From: a virus
Length of the DNA: 41,834 nucleotides
Direction: 5' to 3' (one strand)
IMG/VR virus record: IMGVR_UViG_3300024518_006055
Location: 1 to 41,834 of that record
This document shows, piece after piece, positions 2,488 through 40,882 of the stretch (its first letter is position 1; each line of letters begins with the position of its first letter). The notes beneath the pieces were generated by a model, which saw only the letters and a list, made by a program, of their open reading frames with translations, did no database searches and had not been told where the DNA came from. A program made the position numbers and the translations under genes.

Positions 2488-2931
2488 ATGGCAGACTGGC
2501 ACGTCAACGTACGCAACAAGATCCTCGGCCACATCCTCGCAGGCACCGCGTACACCCAGCCGATAGAATCGAACAATGTCTATCTGGCCCTCGGAACAGC
2601 GATAAATGCGAGCACTGGGGTAATCACCGAGATAGGTACTAGTGTCGGTTACGCGCGGAAATCGATCTCCATCCTATCTGCGGGGACGGACAATCTGGGC
2701 GACCCTTCTGCGGGGGAGGTCAAAAATAACGCGGTCATTTCCTTCGGTCCTTGCGCCACGACCGCCTGGGGAGCGGTGACTCATTTTGCAATCTTGTCGG
2801 AGGCCTCCGCCGCCGCCAGTGTGGACAACACCATCATCTCTAAAGCTCTGACCACCTCGCGAACTGTGGCGGTTGGCGATTCGGCGGAGTTCGCGGTAGA
2901 TGCTCTCGACATCTCGCTGACATCGGCCTAA
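2488..2931 (+). CDS. phage virion/tail-associated structural protein
   Basis: This 147-residue protein has the layout of a recurrent phage structural family: an N-terminal helix (NKILGHILAGTAY), a YLALGTA strand, a GYAR element, the signature WGAVTHFAI at about residues 93-101, and a C-terminal segment where increased AVGDSAEFA-type strands occur. Proteins of this type occur near tail-fibre and minor virion genes and are thought to be structural. The stop TAA overlaps the next ATG. The exact place in the particle cannot be read from sequence. Confidence 0.55.
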   Translation: MADWHVNVRNKILGHILAGTAYTQPIESNNVYLALGTAINASTGVITEIGTSVGYARKSISILSAGTDNLGDPSAGEVKNNAVISFGPCATTAWGAVTHFAILSEASAAASVDNTIISKALTTSRTVAVGDSAEFAVDALDISLTSA

Positions 2932-3239
2932 TGGCAATCCGCGACCTGACGGACGCGGAGCTTGACGCAGCCATATTCGCCGAGGTCTACGGATCGGCGG
3001 GCACCGCCGAGGCGTACACGTCGAGTCTCACGCTGGTCGAGGAGGCGATGGGCGGCGGTCTCGGCCTGTACTCATCGGGCGCGCAGCGGTATCGATGGCA
3101 CACTCTACAGTCTGACGGCACGGCATCGGTATCCCCAGCGCCAGCGGGCACAATGGTCTACGTCGAGGATCGCATCGGAACCACGGCGGCGAGACGCTAC
3201 GCAGAGGCCCTGCTCGAAGCCGGGAGAGGTGACGCGTAA
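2931..3239 (+). CDS. hypothetical protein
   Basis: This encodes 102 residues, with an acidic helical N-terminus (DLTDAELDAAIFAEV), a Gly-rich centre, and a C-terminal helix (RRYAEALLEAGRG). Start and stop overlap the flanking genes by one base each (TAATG), so translational coupling is likely. No Shine-Dalgarno is obvious at its own start, which fits coupling. It sits among virion genes and may be a minor structural protein. No known motif is seen. Confidence 0.55.
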   Translation: MAIRDLTDAELDAAIFAEVYGSAGTAEAYTSSLTLVEEAMGGGLGLYSSGAQRYRWHTLQSDGTASVSPAPAGTMVYVEDRIGTTAARRYAEALLEAGRGDA

Positions 3240-32920: not shown

Positions 32921-33256
32921 ATGATTGACGACGACGAGCTCGACGAGGCCACCGAGATCGGTGAGATGCTGCTCGGGGGGCACGAGGCCAACAACGCCCT
33001 ACTGCGCTGCGACGAGGACCGCTACGGCGAGGGCTTCCACCGCAACGTCATCATCGCAGCACGGGGCTCTCTGCAGCGTTTCGCCCGCATCGAGACGACC
33101 TGGATGTCGCGCCAACTCCTGAAGACGGTCACGCCTCCGGAGGACGCCACAGAGCCGCAGGCTGCGGAACTCCTGGCTCGGGTGCGGGCCTATCTCAGCG
33201 AGATGATCGGCTTCGGCGAGGCGGCTCTTCAGTCGAGGCGCTCCCTGGCTCCTTGA
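32921..33256 (+). CDS. last gene of the rightward early operon
   Basis: This encodes 111 residues, acidic at the start (DDDELDEATEIGEMLLGG) and helical later (RGSLQRFARIETTWMSRQLL, AAELLARVRAYLSEMIGFGEAAL). It runs convergent to the methyltransferase locus and overlaps its 3' end by 28 nt. No family is recognised. No clear terminator is seen between the two operons. Confidence 0.5.
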   Translation: MIDDDELDEATEIGEMLLGGHEANNALLRCDEDRYGEGFHRNVIIAARGSLQRFARIETTWMSRQLLKTVTPPEDATEPQAAELLARVRAYLSEMIGFGEAALQSRRSLAP

Positions 33257-34113
33257 AGCCATGCTGCTCGCACCACTGCTGGAACCTGCCCATTCCCAAG
33301 GGCTCTAAGGCGGTCCACCCGATTGTTCACGTTCTTTGCAACTCGCGGGGTGGTCTCCGTGCCCATGCTGCTTTGTTCGCGCATGACAGGCTGCACGCTG
33401 TTTCCCTCGCGCGTTTGTAGGTGAAGGTCTTCCCGCAATGGACACACGCCGTCGTCTTGGTGTGCCCCTCCCATCTCTGCTCCGCGTGCAGCACCCCGTG
33501 GCACGTCGCGCAAAGAGTCTGGACGTTCTTCGGGTTGTTGTTCCACGGGTCGCTGTCCTTGTGGTGGGCCTGAAGGGTCGTTGTCCCACCACACAACTCG
33601 CACGCCGTCTTTCGTAGCTTGCGGGCTCGTTTGTGCGAGCCACTCTTGGAAATCGTCATGGTTAATCGGCTCCAGTGATGTCCAGTTTCTCGGCCAGTTC
33701 ATCAGCCACTCGACCCACGTCGGGTTCAGGGATCCACCAGTCCGCCGAGCCGTCGCATCCGTCAGCGTCGTGCCTGAATGTCTGCCGCTCGCGGTCGAGT
33801 AGCCCTCGGCCCCGCTCGACTTCGCATCCCCGGCGGTCGGCGTCGGCCACGTCTGCCGGGCGATTGCAGTTACCAGATCGTCCCCCCCGCTCTCCGGGCG
33901 ATGCATTCTCGCATAGTCCGGGCCGCTCGGCGATGACTTCGGCGTCGGGAACTTCACCACCGCTGACGGGAGAGTCAGGTCCCCCTTGCTGCCGCGCTGG
34001 TTCGGCCCGCCCTTGCTGCCGTCCGTTGCTTTCGGAGTGGGGAACATAGTCACCGCGCTCTCGAGCCCGACTTGGCGCTTCTTTCCGTCCGGCGTCCTGC
34101 CTGTCCGCGTCAT
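33229..34113 (-). CDS. C-terminal methyltransferase part in an overlapping frame
   Basis: This leftward frame is +1 relative to the N-terminal methyltransferase frame. It reads as the second half of a C5-cytosine methyltransferase: variable recognition-type repeats (TMFPTPKATDGSKGG, TWPTPTAGDAKSSG), LNPTWVEWLMNWPRNWTSLE, and motif X NNRVDRLRALGNGQVPAVV. The frame is open much further upstream; ATG 34113 (AGGAAG upstream) is a plausible start, ATG 34230 another. It is missing from the N-terminal frame, which stops at 33662. It may act as a beta subunit, or be joined by a frameshift. Confidence 0.55.
   Translation of the reverse strand: MTRTGRTPDGKKRQVGLESAVTMFPTPKATDGSKGGPNQRGSKGDLTLPSAVVKFPTPKSSPSGPDYARMHRPESGGDDLVTAIARQTWPTPTAGDAKSSGAEGYSTASGRHSGTTLTDATARRTGGSLNPTWVEWLMNWPRNWTSLEPINHDDFQEWLAQTSPQATKDGVRVVWWDNDPSGPPQGQRPVEQQPEERPDSLRDVPRGAARGAEMGGAHQDDGVCPLREDLHLQTREGNSVQPVMREQSSMGTETTPRVAKNVNNRVDRLRALGNGQVPAVVRAAWLQGARERLD
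33327..33659 (-). CDS. HNH endonuclease overlapping the methyltransferase end
   Basis: This encodes 110 residues in the third frame. The HNH motif is clear: CELCGG, then LQAHHKDSD, WNNNPKNVQTLCATCHGVLH (about residues 20-58). A second zinc knuckle follows (CVHCGKTFTYKRARETACSL). It starts 3 nt after the stop of the N-terminal methyltransferase frame and overlaps the C-terminal frame completely, so the same DNA encodes two proteins. HNH enzymes nick DNA for homing or packaging. It may be mobile. Confidence 0.75.
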   Translation of the reverse strand: MTISKSGSHKRARKLRKTACELCGGTTTLQAHHKDSDPWNNNPKNVQTLCATCHGVLHAEQRWEGHTKTTACVHCGKTFTYKRARETACSLSCANKAAWARRPPRELQRT

Positions 34114-34642
34114 CCCGCTCTTCGGCTTCCTGCCCCCGTTCGGTACGTTGGGTGTGGGCCACAATCCAGAGGCGGTCCCGCCGATGCGGCGCTCCCGTTT
34201 CGGACGCGGCGATACAATCCCACTCCGCATCGTAGCCCGCTTCGGCAAGGTCTTTGATGATGCGTCCAAAGTAGCCACTGGAAATGAGACCTGGGACGTT
34301 TTCGAGGAGGCACCACTCGGGCTGGACTCCTCGGATGATCTCGATCGTCGCGGGCCAGAGGTTTCGCTCGTCGTCCTCGCCTCGTCGCCGACCAGCGACG
34401 CTGAAGGGCTGGCACGGGAAGCCGGCAGAGACGATATCCACTCGCCCACGCCACGGCGCACAATCGAAGGTTCGAACGTCATCCCAGATCGGGAAGCACG
34501 GGAGAATGCCGTCCTCTTGTCGGCGAAGCAGGACCTCTCGAGCGAACGCATCCTTTTCAACCGCGCACACGACGCGGAATCCAAGGAGGTGCGTTCCGAG
34601 AATTCCTCCGCCGGCTCCGGCAAAGAGGGCGAGTTCACGCAA
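33662..34642 (-). CDS. C5-cytosine DNA methyltransferase, N-terminal catalytic part
   Basis: This 326-residue protein starts at TTG 34642 (MRELALFAGAGGG; AAGGACGGG upstream). It contains motif I FAGAGGG, motif IV GFPCQPFSVAG with the catalytic Cys near residue 76, motif VI ENVPG and motif VIII HRRDRLWIVA. It ends ...GRVADELAEKLDITGAD without motif X, which is found in the overlapping +1 frame. Methylation of phage DNA against restriction is the usual role. The start overlaps the previous HNH gene by 8 nt. Without motif X it should need the second frame's product. Confidence 0.8.
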   Translation of the reverse strand: MRELALFAGAGGGILGTHLLGFRVVCAVEKDAFAREVLLRRQEDGILPCFPIWDDVRTFDCAPWRGRVDIVSAGFPCQPFSVAGRRRGEDDERNLWPATIEIIRGVQPEWCLLENVPGLISSGYFGRIIKDLAEAGYDAEWDCIAASETGAPHRRDRLWIVAHTQRTERGQEAEERDDADRQDAGRKEAPSRARERGDYVPHSESNGRQQGRAEPARQQGGPDSPVSGGEVPDAEVIAERPGLCENASPGERGGRSGNCNRPADVADADRRGCEVERGRGLLDRERQTFRHDADGCDGSADWWIPEPDVGRVADELAEKLDITGAD

Positions 34643-35051
34643 AGGTCCCGTCCTTTCGTCGCGTTCTCTTCGCTGCCGTCTCCTTCCCGTGGAGCTTGGA
34701 GTGCTCCGACCGCGTCATCAGTTGGAGGTTGACCAGACGGTTGTCCTTTCTGTCTCCGTTCCGGTGGTGGACGACCTCGGTTTTCCGTATCCGCCGGCCG
34801 ATCGACAACTCCATCACTATTACATGCTCGGCGATCATCTTCCGGCCGTCGCGGAACGGGTGGAGCACCGCGAAGACCTTCAAGTACCCGTCGCTGTCCG
34901 TCGACTGCTTGTAGACCTTCCCCTTCTGAGGTCCGGTCTTCTGGCCCTTCCGCATCGCTCCCTTGCGTACGCTGGCGCAGCTCTTGGAGCAGTACACTTG
35001 CTCCTTCCTGGCCTTCTGGAACTCCCCTTGGCAGTGCTGACATCTGGTCAT
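34635..35051 (-). CDS. HNH endonuclease upstream of the methyltransferase
   Basis: This 138-residue protein has AAGGAGGG before the ATG. An N-terminal zinc finger (MTRCQHCQGEFQKARKEQ, YCSKSCAS) is followed by an HNH_3-type domain: MIAEHVIVMELSIGRRI, VVHHRNGDRKDNRLVNLQLM, and a closing SEHSKLH (about residues 70-125). It lies between the integrase and the methyltransferase. It probably nicks DNA and may be a free-standing homing endonuclease. Confidence 0.8.
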   Translation of the reverse strand: MTRCQHCQGEFQKARKEQVYCSKSCASVRKGAMRKGQKTGPQKGKVYKQSTDSDGYLKVFAVLHPFRDGRKMIAEHVIVMELSIGRRIRKTEVVHHRNGDRKDNRLVNLQLMTRSEHSKLHGKETAAKRTRRKDGTFA

Positions 35052-35102
35052 CTTTGGACCCTCCTTCGAGGGATTCTACCAGACGAAGAGAATAATGCCA
35101 GC

Positions 35103-36050
35103 TCATTCATCGGGCTCCTTCTCCTTTTCTCTGGCCGCCCACAGCGCGTCGTAGGCCGGCTTGACGTCCGCCTCCTCGATCAGCGAGTAGTAGCGGAAGG
35201 TCGTCTCGCTCTGGTGCCCGGTGCATGCCATGATCGCCTCGCGCGGCAAGTTGGCCTTCTGCCGGGCGTCGGTGACCCAGGTCACCCGCAGATCGTGGAC
35301 GCGGTACTCCGGGTCGAGCCCCAGAGCCTCGAGCGCCGGGTTCCAGTGGTACTTCTTGTACTTCTCGATGATCGGCTTGTACTCCCCGCCGGGAGCCGTC
35401 GTCCACCAGACCCACGGGCAACCACGAGCACGATTGCGCAGCCGATCTTTGATGATCTCCAGCGTCGGCGATCCGTCGTGGAGCGGCATGGCCAGCGCCC
35501 GCCCATTCTTCGTTCTCTTCCACAGAATGTGGCGATTCTTGGGGTTTCCCAGGAATACCTGGTCCCAGGAAAGGAAGCGGATCTCCTTCGCCCGGCGCGG
35601 ACAGTGAAACAGCATGTGGAAGAAGCTCGAGTAGGGCTCGTCACAGTAGTCGACGATCCTCATGAGCTCCTCCTCCTCGATGTGCCGACCGCGCACGTTC
35701 TTCTGCGCCTTGGGTAGATCGATCCACGGGATATAGCTCACGAGCTCCCGCTGGTAGGCCCACTCCAGAGCCCGCGCAAGCTCGTAGACGTAGCAGCGCA
35801 CCGTCTGGGGCGACAGCTTCTGGTGCTTCCTCAGGTGACGCTCCAGCGTGTCCCCCGTGGCCGTCGTGAGCTCGTGCGGGGCGTCGTCCCGAAAGTAGTG
35901 CGCCAGCCACTTGAGCCGGCAGACGCGCGACGCCAGACCGGTGCGCTCCAGCCCACGGTTCGACTCGTGGTCGACGTAGCGGGCGATGATCTCCGGCATC
36001 CCCATGCGGCGCTCGATATCCGAGCGGACTACTGGCTCTGGTCCTTGCAA
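35103..36050 (-). CDS. int: tyrosine recombinase (phage integrase)
   Basis: This 315-residue protein starts at TTG 36050 in the longest form; ATG at 36005 or 35999 is also possible. It has an N-terminal arm/SAM-like domain (RVCRLKWLAHYFRD, YVYELARALEWAYQREL) and a catalytic domain with box I Arg (CPRRAKEIRFL, about residue 152), HDLRVTW (His and Arg, about 251-254), GHQSETTFRYY (His about 280, Tyr nucleophile about 289). It integrates and excises the phage. The core attachment site is not identified. Neighbours are HNH and methyltransferase genes downstream. Confidence 0.85.
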   Translation of the reverse strand: MQGPEPVVRSDIERRMGMPEIIARYVDHESNRGLERTGLASRVCRLKWLAHYFRDDAPHELTTATGDTLERHLRKHQKLSPQTVRCYVYELARALEWAYQRELVSYIPWIDLPKAQKNVRGRHIEEEELMRIVDYCDEPYSSFFHMLFHCPRRAKEIRFLSWDQVFLGNPKNRHILWKRTKNGRALAMPLHDGSPTLEIIKDRLRNRARGCPWVWWTTAPGGEYKPIIEKYKKYHWNPALEALGLDPEYRVHDLRVTWVTDARQKANLPREAIMACTGHQSETTFRYYSLIEEADVKPAYDALWAAREKEKEPDE

Positions 36051-40309: not shown

Positions 40310-40882
40310 ATGCCAGAACTTGAGGTCCTCGGAGGCGGTAGAGCGTACTCAGTAGCCCTTGACGAGGAGGATTTCGCTTGGGCATCGCTGTGTCCGCCGC
40401 GTTGGTATTGCCGTTCGGCGCGGGATTCTCGGAAGCGTTTTGTCTTCCGGCCGGTGAAGATGATCCGGGCTTGTGACGGTTCGAAGACTTCGCGCTTCCA
40501 GTATCTGGCGCGGGTGATTCTCCGGGCTCGGGCGGGTTTCGCTGTGACCTACCGGGACGGGGACCCGCTCAACCTTCGGCGTTCCAACTTGCGCTTGGTG
40601 GAGACTGCGGAGTTGCCGCGTCTTTCGGCGAAATCTCGGCGTCGTCGTGGTGGGCGGCGGGACACCCCGTTCTACGGCGTCTACCATCTTGGTCGTAGCG
40701 GTAGGTGGCAGGCTTCGCTTAGAGTTTCGGGGAAGTTGCTGCATCTCGGTGTTTTTGAGACACCTGAGGAGGCGGCGGTGGTCTATGACGCTGCGGTTCG
40801 CTCCCACGGGCTGGATCGTCGGCGGCTGAACTTTGCGGTCCCAGTGGAGGTGGAGACATGCAGGATCGAGATCGAGCGGTGA
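40310..40882 (+). CDS. AP2-domain protein with degenerate HNH
   Basis: This encodes 190 residues. Residues about 65-98 resemble an HNH_3 module (FQYLARVILRARAGFAVTYR, DPLNLRRSNLRLV), but the key His of the VDH element is replaced (AVTYRDGDP), so cleavage is doubtful. Residues about 121-178 form an AP2 DNA-binding domain: FYGVYHLGRSGRWQASLRV, LHLGVFETPEEAAVVYDAA and the closing RLNF. As first gene of the late operon it may have become a DNA-binding regulator or packaging factor. Otherwise it is a homing-type HNH relic. Confidence 0.7.
   Translation: MPELEVLGGGRAYSVALDEEDFAWASLCPPRWYCRSARDSRKRFVFRPVKMIRACDGSKTSRFQYLARVILRARAGFAVTYRDGDPLNLRRSNLRLVETAELPRLSAKSRRRRGGRRDTPFYGVYHLGRSGRWQASLRVSGKLLHLGVFETPEEAAVVYDAAVRSHGLDRRRLNFAVPVEVETCRIEIER

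Follow-up and report, generated by a model that had tools for sequence, protein, structure and literature searches.

A predicted two-subunit C5 cytosine methyltransferase encoded in two overlapping frames of a phage genome, with HNH genes nested in the beta frame

The virus record IMGVR_UViG_3300024518_006055 of IMG/VR, analysed here over positions 1-41,834 (41,834 nucleotides, nt; hereafter ‘the window’), contains on its minus strand a locus that, with a probability we put at about 0.78, encodes a C5 cytosine methyltransferase of two subunits in two overlapping frames, with HNH genes nested in the frame of the beta subunit. The alpha chain would provide S-adenosylmethionine binding and the catalytic motifs I-VIII, and beta, presumably translated separately from the same RNA, would bring the target-recognition region and motif IX, and in this lineage motif X as well. 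The active enzyme would require pairing of alpha and beta and would modify the phage DNA, probably as a protection against host restriction. We refer to the alpha frame as A, to the beta frame as B (A+1) and to the HNH frame as A+2 (equal to B+1). The features of the locus, including its open reading frames (ORFs) and a region resembling a target-recognition domain (TRD), are the following.

33662-34642, minus strand: alpha chain in frame A, 326 amino acids, C5 methyltransferase motifs I-VIII, TTG start, no motif X
33229-35106, minus strand: beta ORF in frame B, 625 codons, ATG at 35106, with TRD-like WPTP repeats and motifs IX and X
33682-33729, minus strand: motif IX, LNPTWVEWLMNWPRNW, in frame B; frame A, one base earlier, reads EPDVGRVADELAEKLD
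33280-33309, minus strand: motif X, LRALGNGQVP (within RLRALGNGQVP), in frame B; found in frame A in relatives without the insertion
33327-33659, minus strand: HNH2, 110 amino acids, frame A+2, inside beta, with zinc-binding cysteines; phrog_1271, E = 7.7e-14
34635-35051, minus strand: HNH1, in the frame of HNH2, within the 5' portion of the beta ORF; PF13392, E = 4.8e-13
35101-35110, minus strand: double start ATGAATGAGC, of the alpha (MNEL) plus beta (MSW) type of relatives, upstream of HNH1 and overlapping the integrase stop
34228-34230, minus strand: candidate internal beta start (MRSGIVSP), at the same place as the start of Toaka gp82 (MRAG)

An earlier reading of this DNA from its sequence (the original prediction) had described a methyltransferase ending before motif X, its second half in the +1 frame and an HNH gene in the third frame. 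These frames are present where it placed them (A at 34642-33662, B, and the HNH frame at 33659-33327, all minus strand), and our analysis adds the upstream HNH1 (35051-34635), which the beta ORF likewise encloses. PF00145 matches alpha residues 2-177 (E = 3.8e-37) and phrog_363 matches alpha as well (E = 9.7e-62), with motifs I, IV, VI and VIII of C5 cytosine DNA methyltransferases all within the chain, and the end of frame A (WWIPEPDVGRVAD) is a remnant of an alpha C-terminus that is still complete in relatives without the insertion. Frame B contains LNPTWVEWLMNWP (motif IX), read from 33729, and motif X at 33309-33280, and over the WPTP-repeat region it is matched by a phage methyltransferase family (phrog_1008, E = 1.7e-23). 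The original observation is confirmed.

The relatives were collected by scans with A (80 loci), with B (27 loci) and with HNH2 (one locus, a weak protein match), and from genome contigs (two loci). Alpha was traced in 107 loci, and motifs IX and X were both recognised in 64 (L064, for instance, has no recognised motif X). By tblastn, B lies in A+1 in nearly all loci and HNH in A+2 wherever it is present, in agreement with the predicted third-frame position of HNH2. Many of the loci share ancestry, so that z-scores and counts overstate their independence; our yardstick is the frame +2 control and single-coding segments, where baseline z-scores reach about 8, and up to 25 in +2 where B is strongly conserved.

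Selection was assessed by resampling codons from each locus's own usage while one of the proteins was held fixed. With alpha fixed, the 33 loci without the insertion (the conservation set described below, after also dropping the near-copy L019) had 1, 1 and 1 stops in B in the segments from -90 to -50, from -50 to motif VIII and from motif VIII to the end, against means of 27, 39 and 47. The 19 loci with the insertion, which include the window and exclude the near-identical L003, L085, L096 and L097, had no B stop from 130 codons before motif VIII to the end (segment means 14, 12, 38 and 21), and 7 stops against 23 expected over the first codons. Frame +2 showed no comparable depletion. With B fixed, frame A contained 0 stops against 132 expected (100-153) in the loci without the insertion; in those with it, alpha had 58 stops after motif VIII against 120 expected, and the conservation of its EPDVGRVA block fell from z = 14.7 to 3.8. 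The alpha tail is therefore relaxed in the insert loci, as expected because motif X has moved to beta. Since each frame is selected with the other held fixed, the overlap is truly double-coding, and the split C5 methyltransferase with overlapping alpha and beta frames put forward in the original prediction gains support across homologues. The same resampling rules out that B is a shadow ORF.

The conservation of B given alpha, measured in 34 of the 38 loci with an IX-to-X spacing of 53 nt (duplicates and truncated ones excluded), peaks at SYDPDSSSW (z = 24), ETWPRAGMTR (z = 29) and motif IX (z = 39 and 41), and stays at z < 8 over the first 140 alpha columns. Because the SYDPDSSSW and ETWPRAGMTR peaks overlie alpha motifs V-VIII, both products appear to be needed over these motifs. 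In insert loci B is conserved already across the initial third of alpha (PDKMTAFSRLSRFGMTFKPL, z = 20 and 14), which indicates that beta starts near the alpha start there. Furthermore, alpha genes with NE-type starts (ATGAATGAG, GTGAATGAG or similar) contain a beta ATG 4 nt inside, and use AAT as the asparagine codon at 16 of 16 distinct NE-type starts, whereas among the other asparagine codons of NE- and NV-type alpha genes AAT accounts for 18 of 56. In the window, ATGAATGAGCTGG at 35110 repeats the double start seen in relatives and the start of the beta ORF at 35106 resembles their MSWLFS starts; beta may begin either at 35106 or at the internal ATG at 34230. At 35103-35110 (minus strand) an ATGA also overlaps the integrase stop with the beta-ORF ATG, an arrangement through which translation of the integrase and the methyltransferase may be coupled.

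Motif IX, where recognised, is always in the frame of beta. The classical pattern was absent from alpha in all 107 loci scanned. A motif IX pattern matched 74 of the 107 loci, in every case in A+1 and never in the alpha frame, and missed 33, on whose inspection variant MGFP-like sites were seen in the +1 frame of nearly all, with none in L030. The consensus LNPxWVEWLMGFPxGW resembles motif IX of M.HhaI. When only the core M[GN][FYLW]Pxx[WH] was counted, at most 111 nt upstream of motif X, it lay in A+1 in 66 of 72 distinct loci (26 loci without a recognisable X in A being uncounted), 56 of them at exactly 38 nt, and in neither A nor A+2 in any, against a resampling mean of 0.28 and maximum of 2. 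Close relatives in which a single indel restores one uninterrupted frame, which would have pointed to an error or a dead gene, did not appear: motif IX is in A+1 in 74 of 74 loci.

Motif X, by contrast with motif IX, changes frame. Among the 64 loci with both motifs it belongs to A in 41 loci and to B in the other 23, including the window, and never to A+2. The spacing from motif IX is 53 nt in 38 of the X-in-A loci, 62 nt in one and 116 nt in two; in the 23 X-in-B loci the spacing takes 11 values between 171 and 447 nt, and alpha stops before motif X. How the motif may have moved is suggested by two X-in-B loci that lack an HNH gene (L101 and L105), in which B reads WWxxEP..PRV..RLKA(I/L)GNGQVP uninterrupted. 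This beta segment is collinear with the alpha C-terminus of another locus, L004 (scores 125 and 114, against shuffled maxima of 52 and 42). In the 15 HNH loci examined, the segment is interrupted between WWDxDPS and PRVA. The window itself shows both readings: frame A has WWIPEPDVGRVADELA, and B has WWDNDPS...TPRVAKNVNNRVDRLRALGNGQVP. The distribution of HNH is mixed: beside the loci with the gene and the two without, L100 carries a short HNH remnant and L002 a degraded HNH. On an alpha tree of 98 rows, whose bootstrap had not settled, the X-in-B label requires 7 changes, at least 3 of them forced by supported branches. In that tree L095, an X-in-B locus with HNH, groups as the sister of L114, which has X in A and lacks HNH (support 100/91).

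The most economical history would start from an ancestral layout with motif X in alpha and beta nested in alpha. By duplication of the 3' end, beta would then have received a copy of the alpha C-terminal segment with motif X, leaving alpha free to shorten, and an HNH gene of homing type would have entered the appended segment in the beta+1 frame, stop-free in beta and read through as a linker, with local losses afterwards. In the window, a second HNH gene would have entered the 5' part of beta.

The HNH genes are nearly all open in the beta frame. With the HNH protein of the 15 HNH loci fixed and its codons resampled, B contained a single stop (in L089) against 105 expected (87-123), and with B fixed the HNH frame had 0 against 26 expected (17-37). 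Conservation of B marks both edges of the insertion (AFNPKEFQRW z = 16, WWDRDPSQAP z = 19, PRVAK z = 12) and is weak in its middle, which suggests a linker for which only openness in B is needed. Downstream of HNH, 15 of 15 loci retain a remnant of the beta tail, which was not counted as independent evidence because it follows from the base conservation of motif X. The HNH2 ATG lies two bases past the alpha stop (TAACCATG), the HNH1 stop overlaps the region of the alpha TTG start, and in 4 of the 15 HNH loci (the window, L092, L093 and L098) the HNH start touches or overlaps the stop of alpha. Three products had been proposed to share the DNA; the frames in fact overlap two at a time, A stopping at 33662 and HNH2 beginning at 33659, and at most about 8 bases (34635-34642) could be read in all three frames.

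Several observations weigh against the two-subunit reading. In the window considered alone, the chance of a stop-free B is 0.0065 over HNH1, 0.08 over alpha and 0.04 over HNH2, so that its openness is weak over the latter two, and it is HNH1 and the comparison with relatives that make it firm. The residues of B in the middle of HNH2 are weakly conserved (z = 3-7), which fits a linker but also the mere avoidance of stops. No Pfam family matched beta, a search of the PDB with a beta profile found no C5 methyltransferase (best E = 0.81), and its structure model is poor (mean pLDDT, the predicted local distance difference test, 47.8; pTM, the predicted template modelling score, 0.26). Because of this, motif IX and the TRD are identified by sequence pattern, position (for motif IX a fixed spacing) and single-chain relatives, and motif X of beta by pattern. 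Beta is broken in some loci (L089, inside HNH, L018 and L029), and in L101 (alpha at about 2509-3107) and its copy L126 the alpha frame changes between motifs IV and V (in L101, residues 1-88 in f1 and 73-212 in f3), which may be an indel or an error in an otherwise conserved locus. A search of viral contigs confirmed no relative with HNH1 at the position of the window, and translation of beta through HNH1 is therefore read from the open frame and its start.

The alternative of a programmed +1 ribosomal frameshift, also considered in the original prediction, would fuse alpha motifs I-VIII to B in one chain with motifs I-X. In insert loci a single shift would indeed give the order I-VIII, TRD, IX, X, and an enzyme of this order exists, the single-ORF product gp66 of mycobacteriophage Batiatus, which has motifs I-VIII, the same type of TRD, IX and X (E = 2e-12; the single-chain relatives are only distant, at 30% identity). 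However, B is constrained upstream of motif VIII, where such a fusion would still read A, the loci without the insertion would need a second shift back to reach motif X, and starts of beta type are present, with the ATG 4 nt after the alpha start and the AAT bias of 16/16. Since B is constrained over alpha motifs V-VIII, we favour two polypeptides and consider a frameshift product unlikely. That B is a real second protein with another job, e.g. an inhibitor or a DNA-binding protein, would fit a beta that by itself has neither a Pfam match nor a confident fold, and seems to us slightly less probable still: beta holds motifs IX and X, the pattern scan found no motif IX in alpha in 107 of 107 loci, the regions of beta are fused to motifs I-VIII in Batiatus gp66, and motif X switches between alpha and beta.

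HNH genes are often located in group I introns, and removal of the HNH region as an intron or intein, joining motif IX to X, would restore the uninterrupted segment seen in L101 and L105. Yet Rfam gave no match at E <= 1 within 33000-35400, Pfam no intein domain at the locus, and B is open through HNH in 14 of 15 loci, an openness that a spliced intron would not need; we regard splicing as very improbable. Least credible is a dead gene or sequencing error, i.e. one methyltransferase broken by an indel and accompanied by HNH debris. The existence of single-chain relatives and the few loci with stops in beta could be taken in its favour, but the same frames occur in 64 loci, with strong selection on both readings, and this recurrence across loci contradicts a sequencing error or pseudogene.

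The two-subunit reading finds parallels in known enzymes, to which the original prediction had likened the locus: the X-in-A layout of the 41 loci recalls M.EcoHK31I and the X-in-B layout of the window M.AquI. In M.EcoHK31I, beta is nested in alpha. Both M.EcoHK31I (YGGCCR) and M.AquI (CYCGRG) are C5 methyltransferases of two polypeptides; the larger subunit of M.EcoHK31I is reported to carry motifs I-VIII and X, with a TRD predicted in it, and the smaller polypeptide motif IX, and in M.AquI alpha carries I-VIII and beta the distal variable region, IX and X (PMC3404938). Compared with these accounts by motif layout, the 41 loci share X in alpha and IX in beta with M.EcoHK31I, and the window differs from it in having X, HNH genes and TRD-like repeats inside beta; alpha I-VIII and beta IX-X on separate ORFs are shared by the window with M.AquI, whereas its ORFs overlap over hundreds of codons and have HNH genes in a third frame.

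Hidden HNH genes have already been published: the ShiLan domain and the insertion in Pacc40 gp60, described in 2025, are HNH nucleases out of frame in phage methylases whose own frame is stop-free, with neither an intron nor an intein found (PMC11855218; the methylase of that study is the subject of an earlier paper, PMC9957025). The window likewise has an HNH in another frame of a methylase, with the host frame open. However, the host genes of that study are described as one methylase ORF each (neither ‘subunit’ nor ‘split’ is used in the paper) and the ShiLan HNH lies in the third frame, whereas HNH2 occupies the second (+1) as counted from beta, and the host ORF in the window, beta, itself overlaps alpha (PMC11855218). 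In the open-access literature, with most subscription journals outside its scope, we found neither the nested-beta family of phages nor the transfer of motif X nor their combination reported. What is new here is how broadly the nested beta occurs, that motif X has been transferred, and that one beta ORF contains two HNH genes.

The annotation of relatives is uneven. The two halves are annotated as overlapping genes in mycobacteriophage Toaka (gp83/gp82, E = 1e-17). In the E. coli PT62 prophage alpha is annotated (WP_230069165.1) and the +1 beta is not, the annotation of Klebsiella phage BUCT711 holds a short alpha only, and in Pseudomonas phage VB_PaD_phPA-G (L114:2500-3228) only beta is annotated, as hypothetical, the alpha methyltransferase in the same bases having been missed. 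In Mycobacterium phage Dorothy, close relatives of the Batiatus methylase form two overlapping ORFs (gp71/gp72, L143:501-1590), judged by sequence a natural fission within one family. Toaka and Dorothy both have an alpha with I-VIII overlapping a beta with TRD, IX and X, annotated as two methylases, as here; the window differs in that their overlaps are of 101 nt and 23 nt, with no HNH inside. In the E. coli PCP07014 prophage (L139:1499-2260), a RefSeq pseudogene with an internal stop, nearby stops occur in the alpha and beta readings, and both halves seem broken. The single-chain C5 methyltransferase gp45 of Staphylococcus phage CUB-EPI_14 (L142:108-1913) contains an open HNH-like +1 ORF just before motif IX, found using HNH2 (E = 7e-5), and seems to be a further phage methylase with a hidden HNH inserted in it. 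Around the locus in the window lie tailed-phage genes (terminase, portal, head, tail spike), with the integrase immediately upstream, and another HNH endonuclease gene is located near the other end of the record (40310-40882, plus strand; phrog_99, E = 1.1e-14).

In bacteria and their viruses, genes rarely overlap at length on one strand with selection that can be demonstrated on each frame. Here a conserved enzyme motif is supplied from the other frame and both readings have a clear expected role. The start of an HNH gene abutting or overlapping the alpha stop could explain in a simple way the translation of a hidden HNH. More broadly, we lean towards the view that a large family of phage genes annotated as ‘cytosine methyltransferase’ consists of half-enzymes, whose half with the TRD and motif IX is largely unannotated in the +1 frame, and that the overlap has repeatedly been resolved by 3' duplication moving motif X to beta, with HNH elements exploiting the linker thus freed. 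The window would be an extreme case, in which a single beta ORF spans HNH1, alpha and HNH2. The loci would then be a natural series for following the passage of a motif between two subunits, and many annotated cytosine methyltransferases of phages and prophages would yield no active enzyme when only the annotated frame is cloned.

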